Assembly: GCA_022647575.1 (NCBI GenBank)
Contig: JALCKY010000004.1
Coordinates: forward strand, 62,001-126,000
Direction: 5' to 3'
Source: Lachnospiraceae bacterium
GTDB taxonomy: Bacteria > Bacillota > Clostridia > Lachnospirales > Lachnospiraceae
Length of the DNA stretch: 64,000 nucleotides
Shown: piece after piece, positions 8,817 to 20,595 of the stretch
Numbering within the stretch: position 1 is the first letter of the stretch
How the letters are laid out: every line of letters begins with the position of its first letter
Program-made: the position numbers and the translations under genes
The notes under the pieces: model-generated
Told to the model about the DNA's origin: nothing
Database searches by the model: none
The model's input: the letters and a program-made list of their open reading frames with translations, nothing else

Positions 8817-9668
8817 TTAAAAATGCGCCGCAAGAAGCTCTGCGGCCTCATTGATCGGGATGCACATGCCGATTCCCTCCAGCTGCGTATCCGAAGCCGC
8901 GGTGCTGATGTATTTCCTGGAAATGATGCCGACGAGTTTTCCGTCGGTGCTGAAGACTCCTCCCCCGCTGCTGCCGCCGTTGATGGCCGCATCGGTCTGG
9001 AACATCTTCACGTATTTCCCTTCCGCATTTGCAGACTGCATCGTCCGGTTCAGTCCGGAGACGACACCCGTGCTGACGGAGGCCGCCAGTTTTCCGGATG
9101 CCGGATTGGCAATGCAGATCAGCTGGTCCCCGGCCTGCAGCTGATCGCTGTCGCCGATTTCAACGGGCTTTGCATCGAGTCCGGGTACGGACAGGATTGC
9201 CAGGTCCCGCACCTCATCCGCATCCAGAAGCGTTCCGTCAAAAGACTTCGCTTCCTCTTCCGATCCGGCAGGAATCGAGACCGCAATCCGGTCCGTATCA
9301 CTGACCACGTGATAGCAGGTCAGCACAAGTTCCCTGCCGATCACGACACCCGTCGCTTCTCCGGCCTCCAGCTCCTCCTCGGAATCGGAATCATCCTGTT
9401 CCTGAAAAGTCGTGCCGGAAGAATGGACGGTCATGTTCTTGTAAATGGAGATTCCCGCAATGCTCCCGCGGACTGCCGACACCGTTTCCGTAAACGGGCT
9501 GCTGCCTCCGCTGCCCGCTGATTCCGAAAGCGACGCGATTTCAGCTGCCTGCCTGGCTATTTCCCTCTGCTGAATCACAGCTGCAGCAATCAGGGAAATA
9601 ACCAGGATCAGCAGTACGGCATCCATTGCCCGAAAGCGTTTCGGCTTCTGTTTCTCTTCTTCCATCAC
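8817..9668 (-). CDS. Membrane-anchored trypsin-like serine protease (S1C, HtrA-like without PDZ)
   Basis: 283 residues. An N-terminal membrane segment (about 16-34) is followed by a coiled linker and an HtrA-type protease domain. The catalytic triad is visible: His120 (LTCYHVVSD), Asp155 (VRDLAIL) and Ser234 (GGSSGGGV). An acidic loop (residues 90-104, DDSDSEEELEAGE) interrupts the early domain. The protein ends after the protease domain, so there is no PDZ domain. It would face outside the membrane. Translation starts at GTG (9668) or ATG (9665), both overlapping the TGA of the giant lipoprotein, so the two are coupled. Trimming or folding control of that surface protein is a reasonable inference, not shown. 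Confidence 0.8.
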   Translation of the reverse strand: MMEEEKQKPKRFRAMDAVLLILVISLIAAAVIQQREIARQAAEIASLSESAGSGGSSPFTETVSAVRGSIAGISIYKNMTVHSSGTTFQEQDDSDSEEELEAGEATGVVIGRELVLTCYHVVSDTDRIAVSIPAGSEEEAKSFDGTLLDADEVRDLAILSVPGLDAKPVEIGDSDQLQAGDQLICIANPASGKLAASVSTGVVSGLNRTMQSANAEGKYVKMFQTDAAINGGSSGGGVFSTDGKLVGIISRKYISTAASDTQLEGIGMCIPINEAAELLAAHF

Positions 9669-12600
9669 GTACCTGCTTCCGTTTTATCCGTTCCCTCTGC
9701 CGCCGGCGGCAGAGTCAGTTCTTCCACGGGCTGCTCCGATGATTCTTCCTTCTTTTCCTCCGATGCTTCGGAAGACGGAGTTTCAGCCGCCGGTGCTTCC
9801 GCTGCAAGAGTATCCGCTGTTGATGTCTCCGCCGCCGTTTCACCCTGCTCCTCCGCCGGTATGACAGCAGGGCTTGTCTCGGTCCCTGCTGCCTGTACAC
9901 CCGCTGCATTTCCGCTCACTTCCTCAGCCGGCACTTCGGAAACCGTACCGGTATCAGCTGTCGGAGCCGGTGCCGCGGACATCAGTACCGGTGCCGCAAG
10001 TGACCTCATACTAAGCTGACTCGGATCAGCTGAGTTAACTTCCATTTTTAAGCTGACAGTTACAATATTAATTGTACCATCATATTTTGGGTTGGCCAAA
10101 TTCGTAGTTGGATCCATATCGTTTCCCGTATAAGTTTTATCTCCAATCGTATATGTTATGCCTTCCTGCTGCAAAGATTCTGCTTTGTTTGTACCGACAG
10201 TAACTCTCCATACCTGTACTGTAGGATACGAATCACCCTTTTCCAACGTAAACTCTATCGTTGGATTAGCGATATATATGTTATCTGGAGTCTTCGGCAG
10301 TTCTTCCCCGATTTTAGAAATACCAAAGAAAGTTGTCTCACTCTGTACCGTATCCGTAAAAGTATACGTAACCTTCCCAGCCGTCGCTATTGTAAGCTGC
10401 CCCGTCTGATATTTCACTTCATAATTGGCTGTCACGTCCACTTCTGCAGAGTTCTTGATTGTTATATCTGTCCCGGAAGGAGTGATGGTATATGTTCCGT
10501 TTATTTTCTCTGTTGCTATGCTGTAGCTGAACGTTCCTGTCAGGCTGTCTCCTTCCGCCAGTCCTGTCACGGTATTGCTCCATGCCGGATCTTCCGTCGC
10601 ACCATCGACCTTGCTCTTATCATCCGCCTTGACGGTAACCTCTTTCTTCGTAATCTCGATGGTCGCGGCAGCTGTCCCCGACTGCGGATAACCTGCCGCC
10701 GCAGCACGGACATAAACGTTCACCTTTCCGTCTGTCACATTGGTATAGGTCGGTGCCGTATCTGACCAGGTCTTCTGATCCGTCGAATATTCCACTGTTG
10801 CATACCAAGGTGAAACCGAAACGCTGATGCCGTGAGGCGATCCGTCGTAAGCACCGCTGTAAGAGGTGGCACTGACGGATACGCTCGGGATTTCATCGTA
10901 AACAGCCATCAGATAATTCCCTGCCTTGTACCCTGCCTCGATAACCTTGCCTTCCGTATAGATAGAAACGGAATCCCCGGTATTGTTCGACCATGCCCAG
11001 TGACTGAATGTATATCCCGGAGGCGGAGTCGGCGTTTCGTAGTCATACTGTGCGCTCAGCTGAGCATCGACATTAAAACGATCAATCGTCAGACTGCCCG
11101 TCCGGTTGCTGAAGGTACCGCCGTTCGCCTGCAGGGTGATGGAAATGAACCTGTATTTCTTCCCGGTCGCTTTCCACTGTGCCGTTGCATTTTCCCCGTA
11201 ATGAATCGAAGTCACGATCGTGTCAGTCTTGGAAGATTTCCATCCGTCAAATGCATACTCCACCTGATAGCCTTCGGCATCCGTTACATAATTCGGCGTG
11301 ACCGGCTGGTAATAGCTCAGATCGATCGTGTCCTCCGGATTGCCGGTCAGCGTTTTCTTGACTGAGCCGTCTGCCAGCCTGCCTCCGTTCAGATCCAGGA
11401 TGGAAGCAGACTTGCCTTTCCAGTTGATTTCAATGCTGTCCACCAGCAGGATTCCGTTTTCCGTATCGCCGCTTCCGAACGTATACGTAAGCGGAGCTTC
11501 ATCCGGGATTGCTATCACGTCAGCGAAATGATCTTCGCCGTGCTTATAAGAAACATAGCCCGGACGTTCATGGATATAGCTGAAGATATCCGCTGCCGTC
11601 AGTTTTTCTCCGACCTTTCCGTAAACCGTGAAGCTGAGATCTTCTCCGAGCTTGAAGGCTTCCGCAGAATCTTTGAGCGTAATGATGACGCCGCGCTCTT
11701 CAAAGACCGGTTCAAACGTGATGCTCCCGCCGCCGGCAGCAGCCAGTCCGTCAAGGTCTGCATAGCTTCCGTTTTTCAGGGTAATGTAATCCCCGCCGAT
11801 TTTTTCGGTCGATTTCCAGTAATAATTGTCAAATGCAAGGCTGCTCCGGTCTCTGTCCGCCGCGATGATTTTCGGCGGGAAGAAGCTCAGGGAGCGGTTG
11901 GCTTTATTGACTGTATCGGAGGAAGCATAATCCACTTCCAGTTTCGTATTGTTCTCCGAAAGAGTATAGACATTGGCACCGTTCCAGGACTGCTGCGACG
12001 TGCCGTTTGAGGAATTGTCGATCGTGCCTGCACCTTTTGCATTGAAGAAAAGCTTATTGACCGGCGATGCCGTATAGACCGCCAGCAGCGGATAGCTCTC
12101 TCCTTCATCCAAAAGAACCTTCGAGCCCTTTTGGGAAATGGAAGCCAGATCCGCATAATCGGCTGTGACGGTTCCGTACTCGAAATCTTCCCGGGTCGGA
12201 ATCTTCCAGCCGGCGAAGCTGTAGACCGCTGCCCGTTCCGCTGCCGTTTTGGATGTATCCGTCACCAGAAGCATGTCCGCATCCGGCAGAGCCACGCCCT
12301 TCAGGAAATCCTGAAGACCGTCATAAGTCATCCCGATCCGGTTGTCGTCCACATGTCCGAAAGCCTTGTATTTCCCGTCACTGTCCTGGGTCACAGCCCT
12401 GCAGAAAACATTGATCTCAGTGCCGCTGCGGTCCAGGCCGTAGTAGGTAATCGTCTGATCCTGCTCCGTGAGGGCCGGCAGTTCTTTATAAAAGGATGTT
12501 TCATTTTTCACATTTGAATAACTGACATTTTCCGAAACCGCATACTGGACTGCCCTCGACCAGCCCATGATGCTGTCCAGCCTGAACTCTTCCGGAACAG

Positions 12601-15600
12601 CCGGGACTTCGCCGATATTGGTCCGTGCGGCAACCTTCTTCCCATTGTAGACAAAGTAGACATTTTTCCAGACATTCTTTATCACCGGAGCTGCCGTAGC
12701 GTAGACAAGATCCGGCTGCATTTTCCGCCTCGTCACTTCATGGCTGTCCTTCGTCTGATGATAGTAGTATCTTTCTCCCTCCACGTATTCATCGTCATGA
12801 ATGACCGTAATCGTGGCCTTGGATGTCGCGTTCACGTCTTCTGTCTTCGTCCAGTCTGTGAAGCTTTCTTTCGTTCCGATTTCAGTTCCGTCATTCAGCC
12901 GGCTGTAGGAAACCAGATCCGGATTCTGCTTCTCAAGCTGATTCTCCGTTCCGTACTGATAAGTAACCGTCTTGATTGTCTGGGGCGAATCGGACCAGTT
13001 CAGTACCCATGAGGCTTTCATGTCCTTCGCCGGGTTCATGTGCAGATAGACATTGACATCTTCTTTCATCACTCCGATGTCCTCTGCCGTCATTACTTTT
13101 CCGTCTTTTCCGGACGACATCGGCACATCCGACCAGAAAGCGGTATTGACATCCCAGTCGCTCGGTGAGTAGCCCCAGTAGTCCTTAATGGTTGTATCCC
13201 AGCCTTTGTAATATTTCGCTGCCCTGACCTTCTCTGCTTCTTCCCTGTAATTTCCGTCTCCCAGTTCAAGTGCCACCGACAGCCAGATCTTGACATCCCC
13301 TTCGCACTGATATCCCGGCTTTGCAAATGCAACAGGCGTCGCTCCGGCAGGGTACGTATCCTGAGTCAGAAGATTGCCGTCCGTATCATAGAAGTTGATA
13401 TGGTACTGCGTCTTTGTATTTCCGGTCGCACTGTAATTGATATAGAAAGTCTTGGTCGGATTTTCTGCCGTAAAGACATCCTGTACCTTCGACGCCTTGG
13501 CAACAACCTTGATCGTCATGTCCTGACTGAGTGCGCCGTTCCGTACGACGACATACCCGCCGTCCAGTACTCCGTTTAAGGCAACGGCATATTTCGCAAT
13601 TTCTTCCGGTTTACTATAAGTAATGCTCTGCTTGCGGAGCCCGCCGTCCAGTCCGCGGACATTGCTGATTTTGCTGTCCGCCAGGGTGATTTCCGCTATC
13701 TCAAAGTCATAGTCCTCCCGGTTGAACGTCACCGCCGAAACCTTATCATCATCCGAATAGGCTACGGAGCTCGTTTTCATATTTCCGCGAAGAACTTTCA
13801 GGCAGGAGGAATTCTTATCCCCGATGTCTGTTTCCAGTTTATAAGGCGCAGCGGAATCCGTGCTGCGGATCTTGTTTTCAAGCTTCACGGTATTCCCGTT
13901 CTTATCCTTCATATCCGTAAGATCGACCAAATTGCTCGAAAGGGCTATAGTCTCGGTCGAGTCTACGAAGCCTCCGTAGATATCCTCGGCGCTGGAGCTG
14001 AAGGCTCCCAGTTCCTGCTGCCAGAGCGGGAATTTCCAGTCAGCCAGTCCTATTTCCCATTCTTTTACAATCTTGATAGTCGCCTTCAACTCCACAAAAA
14101 TTCCTACCGAAACTCTTGCGCCTCCGGCAAATGTAGAGACGGATGATTCATATTCCTCCCCTTCTTTATTCAGCATGTCCGTGAAATACTGTCCGCTTGA
14201 TTTATTGAAATTATAGGCGAAATAACCGGTCAGTTCCCCGTAAGGGCCGGCACCGGCTTCCAGGCCGACGTGAAGAAGATCATTCATCTGGAAACCGCTC
14301 AGGTTCAGTCCGAGTTTAATGCCGAATTTCACTCCGATGCCGCCCTGCAGCACGACTCCCACATTCAGGTCGCTTGCAAGCGTGCGGGCGCCTGTCTTAA
14401 AGGAAGAAAGACTGCTGCTGCTTCCGTAGGTTTCGATATCCTTGATGATTCCCTTATCATAGATGCATTTTCCGTTGCTGATATAATAATCGCCTTTGTG
14501 CTCATAGCTTATTTTCGCCGTAAGGCTGACCTGAGCCGCAATGCTGAATGTTATGCCGAACGTTATCTGAACCGAATCGACGCCGCTGAAAGTCAGATTG
14601 ATTTTCCCGAGTTCCTTGTCGACGAGGTCGACGTAATTCAGGTCCACATCGTACAGTTCATTGTTATCCGCCATCAGCGAATGCATCTGATCGACGTATT
14701 TCCAAAGGTCGCGTGTCTGCTTGGCGACTGAAATGACGACTTCGGAATCTTCGGAAGTGTCAATGTCGATTCCCAGTTCGCTTTCCAGTTTCTTCGAAGA
14801 ATCATCCTTGCTGTTTTCAGCTACTGTCTCATTTCCGGCAGCTCCGGCACCTCCGCCGACTCCGCCCAGCGCGCTGCTGTTCGTACTCCCGGAGGATGTG
14901 CTGTTTGAGCTGCTCCCCGAGCTTGTGCTGTGACTTGAGGTTCCCGAATTCGTACTGCCGTTCGAACTGCTTCCCGAGTTCGTGCTGTGACTTGAAGTTC
15001 CCGAATTCGTGCTGCCGTTCGAGCTGCTTCCCGAGTTCGTGCTGTGACTTGAAGTTCCCGAATTCGTACTGCCGTTCGAGCTGCTCCCCGAGTTCGTGCT
15101 GTGACTTGAGCTTCCCGAATTCGTACTGCCGTTTGAGCTGCTTCCCGAATTCGTGCTGCCGTTTGAGCTGCTTCCCGAACTCGTGCTGTTCGAGCTGGTT
15201 CCGGAACTGCTGCTGTCCGTCCCGGACTCATCATCATCCTTCTCTTCCTTCCCGAGTTCCAGCGTAGCATTGAAGCTGAATTCCGTCGTGCTGTCGGGAA
15301 CAATTCCGACCATGACGAAGTCATCCTTCATAGAAGCATACTTTGCATTCTTGGCAATGGTCTTGCCATAGACAGATACCGGGCAGGACTCGCTGATATG
15401 GAACTTCAGCTTGACGGTACCCTGCAGTCCGGTCTTTTCATTCTTGCCGAAATCCCACTCAAATTCTTTGCTTTCAAATTCAATCCCGACATAGGGAATC
15501 TTCTGCTCAGAAAGACCGATGTCAAAATTGATCTCGCCGTATTTCTCACCGCTGATGCTGAGCGTATTGACATCCTGCAGTTCTTCCGGTCCGATTCCGA

Positions 15601-16963
15601 GATCGACCGCCGTCATTTCCATGAAACGGTCATAATTTTCTTTCGACACATACTGCAGCTGCTCCTGGATTTCAGGAGATTCCCTGACTCCGTCCATGAC
15701 GGCATCCACATAGGCAGCAAAACCGATGCTGGTCCCGATTTCCTTCGCCAGCTCATCCTGTACATTTTCATCAAATTCAACTGAATAATTTTCCAGGTCT
15801 CCGCTGTCAAAGGAATAGGCATATTCATCCCAGAGATCGGAAGTGGAGGCGATTTCCATGGTGCAGGGCCTCCCCTGTCCGGAGCTTTCCCCCACGGTAA
15901 GCACTTTGTAGTGTACGCCTTTGCCTTCCTCTCCTCCGTCCGGGAGGTAAATGACGTCCCCTTCCTTGACCGGTGCCGTCGAAGACAGGACGGCAGTATA
16001 TTCATTGTCGCCGGTCTTTTTGATTTCCTGCACATCCTTTGCCGCGACATTGATGATGCCTGCCTTCGCGACCTGCGTATCCATCTTTTCTTCTGCAATC
16101 TTAAAATTCAGCTGTACGGCATCATTGCCGATGAGGGAAATGCTGCCGGCAGATTCGAATCTTTCCGCTTCCGGTTTCAGGATTGTAAGACTGTAAAGCT
16201 GTCCGGCTGCAAACCCGCCTTCCGCATACAGGCGATAGCGGAATGAACCTGCGGTAACAGATTTTGTAAAATCAATGCCTTCCTGTTTCAGCTCTTCCGT
16301 CAGTTCCGAATCCGTATCTTCCGGAATGTCCGGATTTGATTCGATGTCTTTCATGGAGATGCTGATTTTGCCGTTGTAGACATCTTCGAATTTAATATAT
16401 TCCGCCAGCGTTTCCGCTGTGATTTTCTCCGTTGAATAAAGTACAAACTCCGTATCCGCAGGCATGTCCGCCTGATAGGAGGCAAAGGTCGTTCCGTTGG
16501 AACGGTAGCCCGCATACAGCGTCGTATCTTTCGAGAAAGTCATATCCTCCTCGTAAGGCGTCGACAGATATTTATCCAGATACCAGCCGGTGAATTCGCA
16601 TCCTGCCATGCTCGGAGGTACCATTTCCGAAAGATCCAGCTTCGTATCCGGATAGACTTTCATCGTATCTTCTTCCGCACCGCCTCCGGTAACAAAAGTC
16701 AGAATAATGCTGCCGTCTGCATTCCCGGATGAAGACACTTTAATGTTCTTTCCCGTTTCTCCGGCAGCTGTAGTGTCCGTATTGCCGGAATCTTTCTGTC
16801 CGTCCGCGGCAGAATCCGATGCTGAGGAATCCGCCGGTGAGGCAGTGCTGTCTGCATTTCCCGCGGAAGAAGAACTGCTGCCGTTTGATCCGCAGGCCGC
16901 AAGGCCGAGTACCAGAGTCAGTACGCATAACAGGGCAATCACTTTTTTGAATTTCTTCATCAT
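9665..16963 (-). CDS. Giant surface lipoprotein with InlB-like and MBG-like domains
   Basis: 2432 residues. A lipoprotein signal (KK, hydrophobic core, LAAC with Cys near 24) is followed by a Ser/Ala/Asp-rich linker. An InlB/Flg_new-type beta-grasp repeat follows near residues 80-150 (FTGWYLD...TLYAGY). Middle regions are uncharacterised, with a Ser/Gly/Asn/Thr linker at about 577-700 made of 19-residue repeats. More InlB-like units lie near 1880-2010 (FDGWKS...ATAQW). MBG-type Ig-like domains lie near 2025-2195 (YDGSPHGISVSVS, then KVDGATEDP). The tail (about 2300-2432) is Ala/Glu/Thr-rich with no LPxTG. Anchoring is thus by lipid at the N terminus. A large extracellular adhesin or scaffold is likely. 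RBS GGGGAGG precedes ATG at 16963. It is coupled to the downstream protease. Confidence 0.82.
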   Translation of the reverse strand: MMKKFKKVIALLCVLTLVLGLAACGSNGSSSSSAGNADSTASPADSSASDSAADGQKDSGNTDTTAAGETGKNIKVSSSGNADGSIILTFVTGGGAEEDTMKVYPDTKLDLSEMVPPSMAGCEFTGWYLDKYLSTPYEEDMTFSKDTTLYAGYRSNGTTFASYQADMPADTEFVLYSTEKITAETLAEYIKFEDVYNGKISISMKDIESNPDIPEDTDSELTEELKQEGIDFTKSVTAGSFRYRLYAEGGFAAGQLYSLTILKPEAERFESAGSISLIGNDAVQLNFKIAEEKMDTQVAKAGIINVAAKDVQEIKKTGDNEYTAVLSSTAPVKEGDVIYLPDGGEEGKGVHYKVLTVGESSGQGRPCTMEIASTSDLWDEYAYSFDSGDLENYSVEFDENVQDELAKEIGTSIGFAAYVDAVMDGVRESPEIQEQLQYVSKENYDRFMEMTAVDLGIGPEELQDVNTLSISGEKYGEINFDIGLSEQKIPYVGIEFESKEFEWDFGKNEKTGLQGTVKLKFHISESCPVSVYGKTIAKNAKYASMKDDFVMVGIVPDSTTEFSFNATLELGKEEKDDDESGTDSSSSGTSSNSTSSGSSSNGSTNSGSSSNGSTNSGSSSHSTNSGSSSNGSTNSGTSSHSTNSGSSSNGSTNSGTSSHSTNSGSSSNGSTNSGTSSHSTSSGSSSNSTSSGSTNSSALGGVGGGAGAAGNETVAENSKDDSSKKLESELGIDIDTSEDSEVVISVAKQTRDLWKYVDQMHSLMADNNELYDVDLNYVDLVDKELGKINLTFSGVDSVQITFGITFSIAAQVSLTAKISYEHKGDYYISNGKCIYDKGIIKDIETYGSSSSLSSFKTGARTLASDLNVGVVLQGGIGVKFGIKLGLNLSGFQMNDLLHVGLEAGAGPYGELTGYFAYNFNKSSGQYFTDMLNKEGEEYESSVSTFAGGARVSVGIFVELKATIKIVKEWEIGLADWKFPLWQQELGAFSSSAEDIYGGFVDSTETIALSSNLVDLTDMKDKNGNTVKLENKIRSTDSAAPYKLETDIGDKNSSCLKVLRGNMKTSSVAYSDDDKVSAVTFNREDYDFEIAEITLADSKISNVRGLDGGLRKQSITYSKPEEIAKYAVALNGVLDGGYVVVRNGALSQDMTIKVVAKASKVQDVFTAENPTKTFYINYSATGNTKTQYHINFYDTDGNLLTQDTYPAGATPVAFAKPGYQCEGDVKIWLSVALELGDGNYREEAEKVRAAKYYKGWDTTIKDYWGYSPSDWDVNTAFWSDVPMSSGKDGKVMTAEDIGVMKEDVNVYLHMNPAKDMKASWVLNWSDSPQTIKTVTYQYGTENQLEKQNPDLVSYSRLNDGTEIGTKESFTDWTKTEDVNATSKATITVIHDDEYVEGERYYYHQTKDSHEVTRRKMQPDLVYATAAPVIKNVWKNVYFVYNGKKVAARTNIGEVPAVPEEFRLDSIMGWSRAVQYAVSENVSYSNVKNETSFYKELPALTEQDQTITYYGLDRSGTEINVFCRAVTQDSDGKYKAFGHVDDNRIGMTYDGLQDFLKGVALPDADMLLVTDTSKTAAERAAVYSFAGWKIPTREDFEYGTVTADYADLASISQKGSKVLLDEGESYPLLAVYTASPVNKLFFNAKGAGTIDNSSNGTSQQSWNGANVYTLSENNTKLEVDYASSDTVNKANRSLSFFPPKIIAADRDRSSLAFDNYYWKSTEKIGGDYITLKNGSYADLDGLAAAGGGSITFEPVFEERGVIITLKDSAEAFKLGEDLSFTVYGKVGEKLTAADIFSYIHERPGYVSYKHGEDHFADVIAIPDEAPLTYTFGSGDTENGILLVDSIEINWKGKSASILDLNGGRLADGSVKKTLTGNPEDTIDLSYYQPVTPNYVTDAEGYQVEYAFDGWKSSKTDTIVTSIHYGENATAQWKATGKKYRFISITLQANGGTFSNRTGSLTIDRFNVDAQLSAQYDYETPTPPPGYTFSHWAWSNNTGDSVSIYTEGKVIEAGYKAGNYLMAVYDEIPSVSVSATSYSGAYDGSPHGISVSVSPWYATVEYSTDQKTWSDTAPTYTNVTDGKVNVYVRAAAAGYPQSGTAAATIEITKKEVTVKADDKSKVDGATEDPAWSNTVTGLAEGDSLTGTFSYSIATEKINGTYTITPSGTDITIKNSAEVDVTANYEVKYQTGQLTIATAGKVTYTFTDTVQSETTFFGISKIGEELPKTPDNIYIANPTIEFTLEKGDSYPTVQVWRVTVGTNKAESLQQEGITYTIGDKTYTGNDMDPTTNLANPKYDGTINIVTVSLKMEVNSADPSQLSMRSLAAPVLMSAAPAPTADTGTVSEVPAEEVSGNAAGVQAAGTETSPAVIPAEEQGETAAETSTADTLAAEAPAAETPSSEASEEKKEESSEQPVEELTLPPAAEGTDKTEAGT
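14941..15168 (-). repeat. 57-bp coding tandem repeat in the giant lipoprotein
   Basis: Units begin at 14941, 14998, 15055 and 15112 (period 57 bp) and encode the 19-residue repeat GSSSNGSTNSGTSSHSTNS. Degenerate copies lie on both sides. It forms a flexible, probably disordered linker, and copy number could vary between strains. Confidence 0.85.
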
Positions 16964-17020
16964 TCCATTCCTCCCCGAATCTTTTTGCGGCCGGCATGCC
17001 GCCTGGATAATCTGCCGTTT

Positions 17021-17104
17021 TGAATCTCCGTTTTCCGTGAATCTCAGTTTTCCGTGAATCTCCGTTTTCGTGAATCTCAGTTTTCCGTGAATCTCAGTTT
17101 TCTG
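17021..17104. repeat. 17-bp tandem repeat, five copies
   Basis: Units TGAATCTC(C/A)GTTTTCCG at 17021, 17038, 17055 (16 bp), 17071 and 17088. It fills the gap between the small membrane protein gene (17111-17431) and the start of the giant lipoprotein gene, so it would be in the leader of the latter. A CGGCATGCCG palindrome lies just downstream of it (about 16992-17001). Confidence 0.85.
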
Positions 17105-17110
17105 TGGATT

Positions 17111-17431
17111 TCATTTCTTTCTGAAGTGTTTTTTCTTCTGATACCGGATGCACACTACCGTTATGACGACGCCCGCGAGGAAGGAAATGACCCCCGCAAG
17201 CGCATACCCGCCGAATTCTTCTCCGGCCATCATGGCCCCGTAGGCATCCTCCGGATCAGAAGCAAATCCTGAAAAGGATCCTGCCAGGAGCACTGCTGCC
17301 GCAGCAACCGCTCCGGAAAGGGCTGCCGAAGCTGATGCCAGCAGAACGGTCACCAGACGGTCCCTTTTCTTTACGAGGACTGCTGCGCGTCTTCGGACTT
17401 CAAAAACCGCGTCATTTGGATGATTTCTCAT
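17111..17431 (-). CDS. Small two-TM membrane protein, uncharacterised
   Basis: 106 residues. A basic cytoplasmic N terminus (MRNHPNDAVFEVRRRAAVLVKKRDR) precedes a first membrane segment (about 27-50). A short outer acidic loop (about 51-70) precedes a second segment (about 75-95) and a Lys-rich tail. GAGGGG lies eight bases before ATG. It follows the terminator of the ECF sigma/PrsW operon and precedes the giant lipoprotein gene, so it starts a new transcription unit. The size and topology match the small membrane protein at 18875-19201. An accessory or anti-sigma-like role is possible; no motif proves it. Confidence 0.55.
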   Translation of the reverse strand: MRNHPNDAVFEVRRRAAVLVKKRDRLVTVLLASASAALSGAVAAAAVLLAGSFSGFASDPEDAYGAMMAGEEFGGYALAGVISFLAGVVITVVCIRYQKKKHFRKK

Positions 17432-17514
17432 GGCTTTTTCCCCTCTTCTGCTGAAAATTTATGTTTCTACCTGTTAGTTCCATTTTTCGTGAAAAGTTCG
17501 CAGTAAAAATTTAA

Positions 17515-17546
17515 CAAAAATAAAGCATGCTGTTTGTGCAGCATGC
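17515..17546 (-). terminator. Terminator after the PrsW-type gene
   Basis: GCATGCTG-CACAAA-CAGCATGC hairpin followed by TTTATTTTTG on the minus strand, about 90 bases after the PrsW stop. It separates the sigma/PrsW operon from the surface protein operon. Confidence 0.8.
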
Positions 17547-17637
17547 CCAATTTTTAGGGATTTCAGGATATCCGGGAAGTGTCTGGGAAGGGATTCCGAT
17601 TCGGAATTATTTCAGATTATTCACATTACCGGTTTTT

Positions 17638-18267
17638 TTACGCTTCATCAGCCTGCCTCCGGTGAAGGACCAGGACGAAAATAAAAATCGTCAGCAGGGG
17701 GAGGGCGTACCCGATCTGCCGCGAAATTCCGGCAGTTGAAACAAGAAGGTTGTAGATCGCGTGAAAAGATACGACAAAGGAAAAAATGCCGAGTGCTCCG
17801 ATTGCCGCCAGATGACGGTATCGGCAGACAAGATTCAGACCGTGGCCGTCCGCAGTCGTACAGACGATATGCATGACTCCGACAGCAAGGGCACGGACCA
17901 GAATGTTCGTCAGATCCCCGGCATCTCCCGATAGCAGATAGAAGCAGTTTTCAAAAAGTGCAAATCCGACACCGACTGTAACCGCCGCCGTCAGGACCTG
18001 CTCTTCCGTCGGATTGAATACCATGAAATAAAAAAGCAGGGGCAGAAGCTTCATGGCCTCTTCACTGATCGGAGTGATATAAATCGCCGTCTCATCCACC
18101 GTCATCTCCGTCACCGCCATCAGAAAACTGTTGATATAGGCGGACAGCAGACAGACGCACATTCCCGACAGAAGGAACATGCAGAATCGCCGGGCGGAAC
18201 CCTTCAGCAGAAAGAGGGAAATCGCCAGCGGAATCGCGATGCAGATAAAGAGATTCTCTACGTACAT
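17638..18267 (-). CDS. prsW: PrsW-family intramembrane protease
   Basis: 209 residues when started at ATG 18267, chosen because AGGGAG lies eight bases upstream (a longer frame to 18303 has no RBS). It has seven to eight membrane segments. The family's active-site motifs are visible: PISEEAMK (EExxK) near residue 58, GVGFALFEN (FAxxEN) near 90, RALAVGVMH near 114, and SFHAIYN (HxxxN) near 165. In B. subtilis, PrsW makes the first cut in the anti-sigma factor RsiW. Here it is encoded in one operon with an ECF sigma factor, so a similar role against one of the small membrane proteins is likely. It overlaps the upstream gene by 10 bases. Confidence 0.75.
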   Translation of the reverse strand: MYVENLFICIAIPLAISLFLLKGSARRFCMFLLSGMCVCLLSAYINSFLMAVTEMTVDETAIYITPISEEAMKLLPLLFYFMVFNPTEEQVLTAAVTVGVGFALFENCFYLLSGDAGDLTNILVRALAVGVMHIVCTTADGHGLNLVCRYRHLAAIGALGIFSFVVSFHAIYNLLVSTAGISRQIGYALPLLTIFIFVLVLHRRQADEA

Positions 18268-18824
18268 GCAGAATTCTCCCTGTAAAAAAAGATTCCCATG
18301 CAAAACATGACAACTGTTATCAGTGCATCAGAAAGAACATATCCGATGCCCCAGGACAGAAAGAGCGCACATTCCGCGACAAGAAAAGCACAGAGTGAGA
18401 AATAATACGGCCGCAGCTTTTCCTTGCCTTTTTCTCTACCCGCTGCATCCATTCCCTTTCCGCAGAACCAGGAAAGGATCAGTATCGGCACGCCCCAGAA
18501 AATGTTGAGAAAGACATCTCCGTATAGAAAGATCAGATGCGCAAAGACCGTCACGATCATTGCGGCAAGCACCCACGATTTCCATGAGGCCTTCCGTTTT
18601 TCCCACTGCAGCAGCTGATGGGCTCCGATGAAAAAGAAAAAGGCACCGATCCAGGCAATGTCGGATGCGGACATGTTCCGGTTGATTTTTCCGAGCAGAA
18701 CATAATGCAGAACATAGAAAAGATTTCCGAAAGAAAAGCAAAGAAACCCGCCGCCCAGAAAAGTAACAGCCGCCGGGTTTACTGTCCGCTTTGCACGGGC
18801 AATCAGCACAATCCCCATCCCCAT
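18258..18824 (-). CDS. Multi-pass membrane protein, uncharacterised (start uncertain)
   Basis: 188 residues from ATG 18824, with about six membrane segments and no recognised family. No Shine-Dalgarno precedes this ATG, and it begins in the middle of a hydrophobic helix. The open frame continues 18 codons upstream to ATA at 18876-18878. That ATA overlaps the preceding gene's TAA as ATAA and has a purine-rich AGGGAGAGGCAGG before it. The longer form would begin INLDDIDNLIS and complete the first helix. A rare AUA start, or a mutated ATG, is therefore plausible. It sits between the small membrane protein and PrsW genes, so it is part of the sigma operon. Confidence 0.6.
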   Translation of the reverse strand: MGMGIVLIARAKRTVNPAAVTFLGGGFLCFSFGNLFYVLHYVLLGKINRNMSASDIAWIGAFFFFIGAHQLLQWEKRKASWKSWVLAAMIVTVFAHLIFLYGDVFLNIFWGVPILILSWFCGKGMDAAGREKGKEKLRPYYFSLCAFLVAECALFLSWGIGYVLSDALITVVMFCMGIFFYRENSACT

Positions 18825-18874
18825 GAAAAGCAGGATCTGAAGGATGCTGATCAGATTATCGATGTCGTCAAGGT

Positions 18875-19201
18875 TTATGACTCTTTGTCCTGCCTCTCCC
18901 TGTTATTCCGGATTCTGATTCCCAGAAGCGTCACGCAGATTCCGAGCGCGAAAGCAAGCACAACGATCACGGCAAACCCGACCATCGGATTTGCAGAGAA
19001 AATAGTTCCGTAATACGGCGGCACTTCATTCCGGATGCCGTTTTCCAGTGCCGGAAGCGTACGGATAAGCACTAAGATCAATACAGCCGATATTCCGCAG
19101 GACAGCACCGAGAAAAACACAGCCTCCCGCGTATTCTGTTTTTTCCTGATCTTTGCTTCCCGGGAACGGATCTCGGCAGCCTGTTCATCAAATGTCCGCA
19201 T
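18875..19201 (-). CDS. Small two-TM membrane protein, candidate anti-sigma factor
   Basis: 108 residues from ATG 19201 (GAGAGG eight bases upstream; an alternative GTG at 19210). A charged cytoplasmic N-terminal helix (RTFDEQAAEIRSREAKIRKKQ) is followed by a membrane segment (about 27-48), an outer loop of about 20 residues, a second segment (about 68-92) and a basic tail. It begins inside the 3' end of the ECF sigma gene, the usual place for an anti-sigma factor, and a PrsW-type protease is encoded two genes on. No ZAS zinc motif or known anti-sigma domain is seen. The anti-sigma role is inference from position and topology only. Confidence 0.6.
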   Translation of the reverse strand: MRTFDEQAAEIRSREAKIRKKQNTREAVFFSVLSCGISAVLILVLIRTLPALENGIRNEVPPYYGTIFSANPMVGFAVIVVLAFALGICVTLLGIRIRNNRERQDKES

Positions 19202-19763
19202 TCCGAACACCTCTCTTTTCCAAAACGGTTTTCAGCGACTGCCGGCTCCGGTACAGCAGATCCGAAATCTGTTTCCTGGTCCTGCCCATTGCCTCGGCAG
19301 TCTCTTCCCGATTCATTTCCTCGAAATAAGTCAGATACAGGCATTCGCAGTATTCCGTCTTCAGTTCTTTCATGGCGTCAAAAAGCACCTGCGATTTTTC
19401 TTCCCGGAGAATCCTGAATTCCGGCAGCGGCTCCGGGGAATTCTTCCCTTCGGCCTCCGGATTCTTTTCTTCTTCCGAAGCGGCCGTTCTGATATGAGGA
19501 AGCCTTTTTCTGACCGACCTTAAAGCTAACTTGCGGCCGATGGCAAACAGCCAGGTCTTGAAGGAAGAACGTCCGCGGAAGCGTGCCGTGCCGGAAACGG
19601 CTGCGGCAAATGTATCCAATTCAAGTTCTTCAGCGTCTTCATAGTTACCGACGATCGTGCGGAGAAACAGAATCAGGCTTTCGCCGTAACGCGAAAGCAG
19701 TTCCTTCAGGGCCGCGTCGTCTCCGTCGACGCTCAGTTCATAAAGTTCTTCATCCGTCTGCAT
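19188..19763 (-). CDS. ECF-type RNA polymerase sigma factor
   Basis: 191 residues. Region 2 (AALKELLSRYGESLILFLRTIVGNYEDAEEL, then FRGRSSFKTWLFAIGRKLAL) spans about residues 17-82. An acidic Glu/Pro-rich linker (about 95-112) follows. Region 4 (ECLYLTYFEEMNREETAEAMGRTRKQISDLLYRSRQSLK) ends near 180. Region 3 is absent, as in ECF factors. It is the first gene of an operon with two membrane proteins and a PrsW-type protease, and the only gene downstream of the c-di-GMP-I riboswitch. A promoter with an extended -10 lies 35 to 45 bases upstream. The Shine-Dalgarno is weak. Confidence 0.88.
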   Translation of the reverse strand: MQTDEELYELSVDGDDAALKELLSRYGESLILFLRTIVGNYEDAEELELDTFAAAVSGTARFRGRSSFKTWLFAIGRKLALRSVRKRLPHIRTAASEEEKNPEAEGKNSPEPLPEFRILREEKSQVLFDAMKELKTEYCECLYLTYFEEMNREETAEAMGRTRKQISDLLYRSRQSLKTVLEKRGVRNADI

Positions 19764-19805
19764 CGGTCTGTGCTCAAGACTTTCTCTTTTTCTGTCTGCC
19801 GTATT

Positions 19806-19814
19806 ATTATAACA
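19806..19814 (-). promoter_or_regulatory. Extended -10 promoter of the sigma operon
   Basis: TGTTATAAT on the minus strand (TATAAT at 19806-19811) with only a weak -35. It lies downstream of the second riboswitch terminator, so the sigma operon has a riboswitch-independent promoter as well. The start would be near 19799. Confidence 0.5.
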
Positions 19815-19847
19815 TAGGACTGCCGGAAACCGGAATCCTTAAAATAC

Positions 19848-19873
19848 AAAAAAGCAGGCCTTTCAGCCTGCTT
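19848..19873 (-). terminator. Second terminator in the riboswitch leader
   Basis: AAGCAGGC-TGAAAG-GCCTGCTT hairpin followed by TTTT on the minus strand. It follows the riboswitch terminator by about 28 bases and precedes the extended -10 promoter of the sigma gene. Confidence 0.75.
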
Positions 19874-19900
19874 TCAAGGTGCCCTCGTCCACATAGTTTC

Positions 19901-19932
19901 AAAAAAAGAGGGTACCCCGTCGGGCACCCTCT
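19901..19932 (-). terminator. Riboswitch expression-platform terminator
   Basis: AGAGGGTGCCC-GACG-GGGTACCCTCT hairpin directly followed by seven Ts on the minus strand, right after the aptamer. The GGTGCCC of its 5' arm could also pair with GGGCACC further downstream (about 19877-19883), giving an alternative fold. Confidence 0.85.
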
Positions 19933-19934
19933 GA

Positions 19935-20030
19935 AAACCGTTAGAAACGGGCAACCGGCTGGCATTCCGTCGTTAAGACGGGTTAGCCCCTTTGGCTTTG
20001 CGCAACTGTCTTTCAACAGTCCTGCCATGT
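19935..20030 (-). ncRNA. Cyclic di-GMP-I riboswitch (GEMM-I)
   Basis: Read on the minus strand. A P2 stem ACTGTT-GAAA-GACAGT with a GNRA tetraloop is followed by the near-invariant CGCAAAGCC and GGGGCTAA. A CCGTC-TTAAC-GACGG stem and AATGCCAGCCGGTTGCC come next. These elements, in this order, are those of the GEMM-I class, which binds c-di-GMP; a cGAMP-binding variant cannot be excluded. A promoter (20049-20076) precedes it and a strong terminator follows. The next gene on the strand is the ECF sigma factor, so the riboswitch likely gates read-through into the sigma/PrsW operon. Confidence 0.85.
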
Positions 20031-20048
20031 ATTAAACTATGCATTTAA

Positions 20049-20076
20049 ATCATAACATTTTAGGTTCATTTGTCAA
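20049..20076 (-). promoter_or_regulatory. Promoter of the riboswitch leader
   Basis: TTGACA at 20071-20076, a 16-base spacer and TATGAT at 20049-20054 with an extended TG, on the minus strand. The expected start near 20042 is about 10 bases before the aptamer. Confidence 0.8.
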
Positions 20077-20121
20077 GTACCGCACCTGTGAAAAAGTGCT
20101 GAATCATGCTCCGGTGCGCGT

Positions 20122-20595
20122 TCATTTTCCTTCAATCAGACAGACCGCCGACGCAGCGATTCCCTCACCCGTTCCGGTAAATCCCATTCCCTCTTCCGTC
20201 GTGGCCTTGACGCTGACATCCTCTGTCTTCATTTTCAGGGCAGCGGCAATATTTTCCCGCATCCTGTCGATGTAAGGCCTCAGTTTGGGGGCCTGCGCAA
20301 TGACCGTCGCATCCACGTTGACGATCCGGTACCCTTTGTCTTCCAGTATTTCCATCGTCTTTTCCAGCAGCGTCATGGACGAAATGCCTTTATAGGCATC
20401 ATCCGAATCCGGGAAATGAAGCCCGATGTCGCCGAGCGCTGCCGCACCGAGCAGGGCATCCATCACGGCGTGCAGAAGCACGTCCGCATCCGAATGGCCG
20501 AGCAGACCTTTTTCATACGGAATTTTCACGCCGCCCAGGACCAGGTCACGTCCTTCTGTCAGGCGGTGCGCATCGTATCCAGAACCGATTCTCAT
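20122..20595 (-). CDS. ispF: 2-C-methyl-D-erythritol 2,4-cyclodiphosphate synthase
   Basis: 157 residues from ATG 20595, chosen because GGAGAGG lies about eight bases upstream and the protein then begins with the family's MRIGxGYDxHR motif (zinc-binding D and H). Other marks: [27 protein letters not shown] (zinc His), [22 protein letters not shown], and the [18 protein letters not shown] terminus. It cyclises CDP-ME 2-phosphate in the non-mevalonate isoprenoid pathway. It ends about 45 bases before the riboswitch promoter and appears to be transcribed alone in this window. No hairpin terminator is obvious. Confidence 0.95.

Follow-up and report, generated by a model that had tools for sequence, protein, structure and literature searches.

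A candidate sigma factor–PrsW module for one giant surface lipoprotein, preceded by a GEMM-I riboswitch leader, in a Lachnospiraceae genome

Results

Gene Content of the Locus

The stretch of DNA analysed here, called the window below, comprises 64 kb of a Lachnospiraceae bacterium (assembly GCA_022647575.1, contig JALCKY010000004.1; genome label G000), and on its minus strand a gene for an extracytoplasmic function (ECF) sigma factor stands in one run with the genes for a protein with two transmembrane (TM) helices (2TM-a), a multi-pass membrane protein and a PrsW-type intramembrane protease. Read downstream from ispF, the order is promoter P1, a GEMM-I (c-di-GMP-I) riboswitch aptamer, terminators T1 and T2, promoter P2 and these four genes, followed past PrsW by terminator T3, promoter P-ECF, a second two-helix protein (2TM-b) and a lipoprotein of 2432 amino acids (aa), whose gene lies just beyond the range studied (17111-20076) and yet belongs to the same arrangement (Table 1). 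A preliminary description of this range had listed a promoter, an aptamer and a terminator ahead of the four-gene run; all are present, and open reading frames (ORFs) and Pfam matches bear out the run, but there are two terminators and not one, and T2, the second two-helix gene (17111-17431) and the giant lipoprotein gene had gone unmentioned. TM helices of the locus proteins were judged by eye.

Table 1. Positions of the features of the locus in the window (nt, nucleotides).
Feature	Positions	Strand	Basis
P1, promoter of the sigma-A type driving the riboswitch leader, TTGACA-16-TATGAT, extended -10	20049..20076	-	promoter scan
GEMM-I (c-di-GMP-I, RF01051) aptamer	19947..20036	-	Rfam covariance model
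T1, terminator, 11-bp stem into T's, -21.8 kcal/mol	19907..19932	-	hairpin scan, folding
T2, terminator, 11-bp stem into T's, -16.4 kcal/mol, 31 nt past T1	19850..19875	-	hairpin scan, folding
P2, promoter, extended -10 TGTTATAAT, starting 51 nt upstream of the sigma ATG, below T1 and T2	19806..19814	-	promoter scoring
ECF sigma factor, 191 aa	19188..19763	-	Pfam, NCBIfam
2TM-a, candidate anti-sigma factor, gene overlapping sigma	about 18875..19201	-	TM helices by eye
Multi-pass (7TM-like) protein, start codon ambiguous	about 18258..18881	-	no Pfam family above cut-off
PrsW-type intramembrane protease	about 17638..18270	-	PF13367
T3, terminator-like hairpin between PrsW and P-ECF	17523..17548	-	hairpin scan
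P-ECF, CTGCGAACTT-N11-TGGAACTAAC, candidate cognate promoter of the window sigma	17473..17503	-	two-block model
2TM-b, related to 2TM-a, first gene after P-ECF	17111..17431	-	sequence likeness
Giant secreted lipoprotein, 2432 aa, Listeria-Bacteroides repeat, lipobox by eye	9665..16963	-	Pfam, ORF

The sigma factor is a small protein carrying Sigma70 regions 2 and 4 only, as expected of the ECF type (PF04542, Sigma70_r2, 41.4 bits against a cut-off of 24, 1.3e-10; PF08281 for region 4, 25.9 bits against 25.7, about 8e-6; TIGR02937, 3.2e-23). PrsW scores 57.6 bits with PF13367 (cut-off 23.5, 1.6e-15), is the sole match to this family found in the genome and carries all four motifs of the set given in PMC12943098 (EExxK, FxxxE, H and HxxxN), which are invariant in a four-row alignment (A1) at E70 E71 K74, F103 E107, H134, and H170 N174. 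2TM-a has a short, positively charged N-terminal tail of about 28 residues (by eye) before the first of its two helices and a conserved motif YGS...GGYV. The tail, helices and motif fit an anti-sigma factor and PrsW substrate, for which 2TM-a is our candidate, while an anti-sigma factor of the RsiW type was not found behind the sigma gene, 2TM-a matching no such family. Weak similarity to 7TMR-DISM was seen in 4 of 46 members of the multi-pass family (best 5.9e-5), the window's own member giving no match, and a search for relatives of the multi-pass and 2TM proteins among solved structures gave nothing convincing. Where the multi-pass gene overlaps 2TM-a, the codon at 18878-18876 is ATA and not ATG, the next ATG lying 54 nt downstream at 18824; in the related locus L059 the gene starts at that overlap site.

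Conservation of the Module

A PrsW profile search of GTDB genomes gave 269 relatives, the best 80 of which were kept and joined by three same-genus loci. The resulting 83 loci, chosen by PrsW and mostly from rumen and gut Clostridia, span 3.5-20.6 kb each, and two of them (L054, L127) start inside the module. By profile search, every one of the 83 has PrsW and the multi-pass protein and 80 have sigma; by position rules 2TM-b follows PrsW in 67, and near the sigma end 50 loci have a full 2TM-a and 6 a short form, some contigs being cut. The link of PrsW with a sigma factor, drawn in the preliminary description, thus holds, given this genetic tie and the intact protease. An ORF of at least 700 aa starts within 4.5 kb downstream in 47 loci, most opening like a signal peptide (by eye) and three (L115, L122, L131) being doubtful, as they resemble non-coding frames; others end at a contig edge or carry a shorter lipoprotein. 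The module appears to be a widespread and apparently undescribed switch made of a sigma factor and a membrane protease. Within the genus of the window, module PrsW occurs in 4 of 42 genomes, the window's own included. Five Fibrobacter metagenome-assembled genomes (L103, L115, L122, L123, L129) carry sigma, multi-pass protein and PrsW, have the 2TM gene in divergent orientation and share the promoter element described below; these copies represent either horizontal transfer or contaminated bins.

Promoter Code of the Sigma Family

Word counts upstream of 2TM-b first revealed the element GTGAGTAAAA-N11-TGCAAYTAA. A two-block promoter model trained on the relatives, with the window excluded, places it ahead of 2TM-b in 54/72 relatives with scores of at least 16.6 (in-sample), the best of 72 shuffles reaching 13.2, and the spacing is 11 in 51 of the 54. 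A second form, GTGGAAG...TGTCTTT, is common to 16 further loci (sorted by eye). In the sigma tree the two forms, A and B, are each set apart by a branch (support 94/83 and 100/100), and none of 500 shuffles gave a value as low; the tree holds 68 proteins of 71 labelled rows, L040 (from genome G010) being absent from it, and the class labels omit L113 and L124. An own promoter of fixed spacing that agrees with sigma phylogeny, as would be expected of an ECF group, can therefore be proposed for the family, and the site in the window is a divergent and low-scoring representative.

P-ECF is the top-scoring site of the 64 kb on both strands (10.9) and lies 72 nt before 2TM-b. The window sigma sits on a long branch near those of L058 and L059, whose element CTGCGAGAAT-N11-TGCGACTAAT is similar to CTGCGAACTT-N11-TGGAACTAAC of the window, and apart from the sigma of the same-genus genome G004 (L039); since it groups with the former and not with the latter, the module was probably acquired separately. 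A search of the whole genome with the IUPAC pattern, allowing at most three mismatches, returned the window site and one other place against three for the reversed control, and as it did no better than that control it is uninformative on a wider regulon. Ahead of sigma itself the exact words of P-ECF occur in 4/80 upstream sequences. There, sigma-A like promoters scoring at least 10 were found in 23 of the 77 rows (window counted) from the 80 upstream sequences that were long enough, against 2.5% of shuffles, and P2 is located at the distance from sigma at which they are enriched in the relatives. The position of T3 between PrsW and P-ECF suggests two transcription units.

The GEMM-I Leader

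The aptamer reported in the preliminary description is present: in an Rfam search of the entire window c-di-GMP-I was the single match (RF01051, 61.4 bits, E 1.4e-9, gathering threshold 35), at full length (model positions 1-87). It has G at the equivalent of G20 in Vc2, the type that binds cyclic di-GMP (c-di-GMP), the mapping of the alignment column to G20 being our own; the G20A form binds cyclic GMP-AMP (cGAMP) (PMC6274999). P1 matches the consensus in 11 of 12 bases and is the sole promoter-like site within 16500-20500, where shuffles gave 2.8 on average, and because this count is below the shuffle mean the meaning of P1 rests on its position. The same interval holds 8 terminator-like sites against 4.4 ± 2.7 in shuffles. 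These scans alone are weak support, and what counts is the order of the elements around the aptamer. We consider the leader to be real, with an aptamer that probably binds its ligand.

Folding revealed a possible antiterminator in which the 3' strand of the aptamer (19957-19949) pairs with the 5' arm and first loop base of T1 (19929-19921). In a 118-nt RNA, whose 3' end lies in the T1 loop, the free fold contains this antiterminator and gains 5.4 kcal/mol over the fold in which the native aptamer is forced; the gap is 2.5 kcal/mol at 115 nt and 1.4 kcal/mol at 123 nt, a length at which the antiterminator has been lost, and completed T1 is more stable than the antiterminator by about 15 kcal/mol. 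The pairing suggests the layout of an OFF switch at T1. No competing antiterminator was found by folding for T2, whose mean pairing probability is 0.90-0.97 in the free, aptamer-forced and antiterminator-forced folds alike. Terminators were surveyed in 102 loci with GEMM-I leaders, of which 18, the window's own among them, could not be parsed; two terminators within 160 nt were found in 4 of the other 84, one in 55 and none in 25. A six-codon frame with a stop (ATGTGGACGAGGGCACCTTGA, minus strand) lies between T1 and T2 at 19894-19874, probably by chance.

Distribution of the Riboswitch

The order riboswitch–sigma–PrsW, whose conservation the preliminary description had proposed to check, was not found in the relatives: GEMM-I was absent from 83/83 loci with the covariance model R1 at E up to 1, although in 76 of them 300 nt or more of the sequence upstream of sigma is present. 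A search of 57 of the loci with Rfam at gathering thresholds showed no riboswitch directly ahead of sigma, all matches being tmRNA (L063, L064), TwoAYGGAY with tRNA (L073), SAM (L057) and TPP (L066); in L063 there are 200 nt between the end of the tmRNA and sigma. With strict filters, GEMM-I gave no match in the three same-genus genomes that carry the module (G004, G010, G028). In six other genomes of the genus ten GEMM-I copies were examined, and they stand ahead of genes for surface-type proteins, pilus-type genes or others, never of this module.

The window's own genome (3.03 Mb in 11 contigs) has five GEMM-I copies and 17 GGDEF matches. By ORF reading, the other four aptamers precede a secreted protein of 1356 aa, two WYL-like regulators and a type IV pilus-like cluster, and altogether 6 of the 14 genus copies examined other than the window's precede secreted-looking proteins (by eye). 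These four copies (L002-L005) all have A at the Vc2 G20 position, the cGAMP-binding change, which is seen in 10 of the 32 aptamers of alignment A3; a response of the cGAMP type in a Clostridia-type genome would be notable if true. A search for GEMM-I near sigma genes covered 114 stretches, several overlapping and most reaching no further than 1.5-3.5 kb on the side examined. Three of them contained ORFs matching the sigma profile (2.8e-13 in L207, 2.1e-10 in L011 and 4e-6 in L209, against 1e-64 for the window sigma); these were rejected as ECF factors, being by eye small region-4-like regulators.

Discussion

We think it reasonably probable that the locus is a self-contained envelope-signalling module serving a single giant surface protein, with a riboswitch standing ahead of the module. 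From the gene order and its conservation, the hairpins, and the promoter element with its agreement with the sigma tree we infer the following scheme. The first unit, from sigma to PrsW, would be transcribed mainly from its own sigma-A promoter P2, and 2TM-a would keep sigma at the membrane. A surface signal, probably received through the multi-pass protein, which may act as a sensor, or through a 2TM loop, would trigger PrsW to cut 2TM-a and free sigma, and free sigma would read P-ECF for the expression of 2TM-b and the giant lipoprotein, with 2TM-b possibly serving as a feedback brake. The leader driven by P1 would be an OFF-type switch acting at T1, with T2 stopping most read-through whether the ligand is bound or not; c-di-GMP is in that case expected to shift the sigma supply little, or only under special conditions. 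A parallel to T1 and T2 is found in the GEMM-I leader Bc1 of B. thuringiensis (Bacillus cereus group), where a spacing of 28 bp between two intrinsic terminators compares with 31 nt here and T2 masks the c-di-GMP response (PMC11218506); Bc1 differs in preceding mcpE (chemotaxis) and in that its T1 opens as c-di-GMP rises, while folding would have T1 of the window close. The riboswitch is read as lying outside the design of the module, as among the loci examined the window alone has GEMM-I.

Several observations weigh against this scheme. A score of 10.9 is modest for P-ECF, a higher one occurring somewhere in 29 of 30 random Markov windows, so that the credibility of the site comes from its place, strand and spacing only. 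P2 has no good -35, and its score of 9 is reached by 16.5% of shuffles. A full 2TM-a is missing in 33/83 loci (6 short, 27 none, with some contigs cut), and the anti-sigma factor may therefore be another protein, either the multi-pass protein or 2TM-b; the Pfam and NCBIfam matches obtained with the two 2TM proteins of the window include no known anti-sigma family, and for 40 family members no anti-sigma domain was seen among the Pfam families listed (25 of 27). In the comparison of promoter classes with the sigma tree seven rows (L066, L088, L096, L098, L100, L101, L110) were relabelled by eye, and common descent alone can cause part of the agreement. The folds were computed on whole RNAs of set lengths and not during transcription.

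In B. subtilis the sigW-rsiW system consists of an ECF sigma factor and a membrane-held anti-sigma factor with PrsW as the first protease, and prsW is located away from the sigma operon. The window, in contrast, has PrsW inside the sigma operon, 2TM proteins that match no RsiW-type domain, a multi-pass protein that is always present and, as the apparent target, one adjacent giant surface protein. PrsW of C. difficile also acts with the ECF sigma factors of that species (PMC12943098), and both systems share with the present one an ECF sigma factor, a membrane-held anti-sigma factor (here a candidate) and PrsW. A domain of c-di-GMP type is linked to PrsW in the PrsW-PilZ fusion LIC_20173 of Leptospira, a fusion predicted from sequence and a structural model, for which the available text mentions no riboswitch or sigma operon (PMC12943098). 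The available parts of PMC12943098 and PMC7438776 describe no system joining PrsW, an ECF sigma factor, c-di-GMP and a riboswitch; in the open-access literature searched, subscription papers lying outside it, PrsW, sigma factor and Lachnospiraceae were not mentioned jointly, and within the same scope no description of this module was found by title or abstract.

According to the preliminary description, the riboswitch gates the operon, so that c-di-GMP sets the amount of sigma and PrsW its release. On the folds given above, low c-di-GMP would in this model favour the antiterminator and read-through. The full-length aptamer with G at position 20, the better free fold of the 118-nt RNA, the secreted-looking proteins behind 6 of 14 other genus copies and the 17 GGDEF matches all speak for such a two-layer control, and the leader does stand ahead of sigma. 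Nevertheless, both terminators lie between, T2 is not opened in any modelled state, finished T1 outcompetes the antiterminator by about 15 kcal/mol, P2 sits below both terminators and the riboswitch occurs in none of the 83 relative loci, and we hold this explanation to be unlikely. The GEMM-I copies examined in related genomes precede other genes, one half of what the preliminary description itself had named as refuting it. The gating of sigma by c-di-GMP is thus possible without being the best-supported or simplest reading, and the interpretation given in the preliminary description is partly supported. In its more specific form, in which low c-di-GMP permits the passage of T1 and, in some condition, of T2 and thereby enlarges the pool of PrsW-released sigma for the giant adhesin, it appears quite unlikely. 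No described system with both layers was found in the literature searched, in keeping with the preliminary description, yet sigD in the flgB operon of C. difficile is a known case of a sigma gene under a c-di-GMP riboswitch (PMC6200980, PMC11477304, PMC6366702). Functional class I riboswitches of this species are OFF switches (PMC6366702), 'generally' so in the wording of PMC6200980, and its Cdi-1-3 (Cd1) resembles the window in having a GEMM-I leader over a sigma-containing operon with an OFF switch at a terminator; SigD, however, is flagellar, and neither a PrsW layer nor a dual terminator nor a second promoter is mentioned in the available text.

The leader may alternatively be an orphan terminated RNA, its gene lost or itself brought by rearrangement, with no effect on sigma. 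A dual terminator followed by a separate promoter is what such an RNA might leave behind, and this two-terminator layout was seen in just 4 of 84 other parsed GEMM-I leaders. The restriction of GEMM-I to the window, among this and the 83 relative loci, points the same way, and an orphan c-di-GMP-I riboswitch of C. difficile is listed in PMC11477304. An orphan status is, nevertheless, somewhat doubtful, because the aptamer is intact and P1 keeps 11 of 12 consensus bases, so that the leader was probably kept by selection, and because it stands directly ahead of an operon that would serve a surface protein, a usual GEMM-I target. It is improbable that the giant protein is itself what PrsW and the multi-pass protein act on, through cutting, releasing or anchoring it or 2TM-b, with sigma regulated otherwise. 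PrsW domains fused to polymorphic toxins have been proposed as processing peptidases (PMC3482391), and a long ORF lies downstream in 47/83 loci (three doubtful); PrsW of the window, however, belongs to the sigma unit ahead of T3 and P-ECF and not with the giant gene, 2TM-a overlaps sigma, and the sole characterised PrsW cuts an anti-sigma factor, according to the available text of PMC12943098. PrsW as part of a polymorphic toxin was rejected as the leading explanation.

The self-contained module, if correctly recognised, places PrsW, known mainly from stress sigma factors, within a portable cassette of rumen and gut Clostridia and Fibrobacter bins that brings a promoter code of its own and seems made for the control of a single, very large surface protein, and the promoter element makes the link between sigma and target directly testable in cultured commensals. 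Should c-di-GMP gate it after all, an autonomous sigma–PrsW module would be wired to the second-messenger network via an aptamer of the c-di-GMP type, the other four GEMM-I copies of this genome looking like the cGAMP type. A lesson of the locus is that an aptamer ahead of an operon need not gate that operon.

Two minor observations concern the target unit. In five relatives (L066, L100, L101, L107, L110) the longest ORF behind the module encodes a lipoprotein of 528-529 aa, which by eye is more like a transporter binding protein than a giant surface protein. In the window, short direct repeats (GAATCTCAGTTTTCCGT and variants, by eye, on the plus or minus strand) lie within positions 17000-17110, between 2TM-b and the giant gene.

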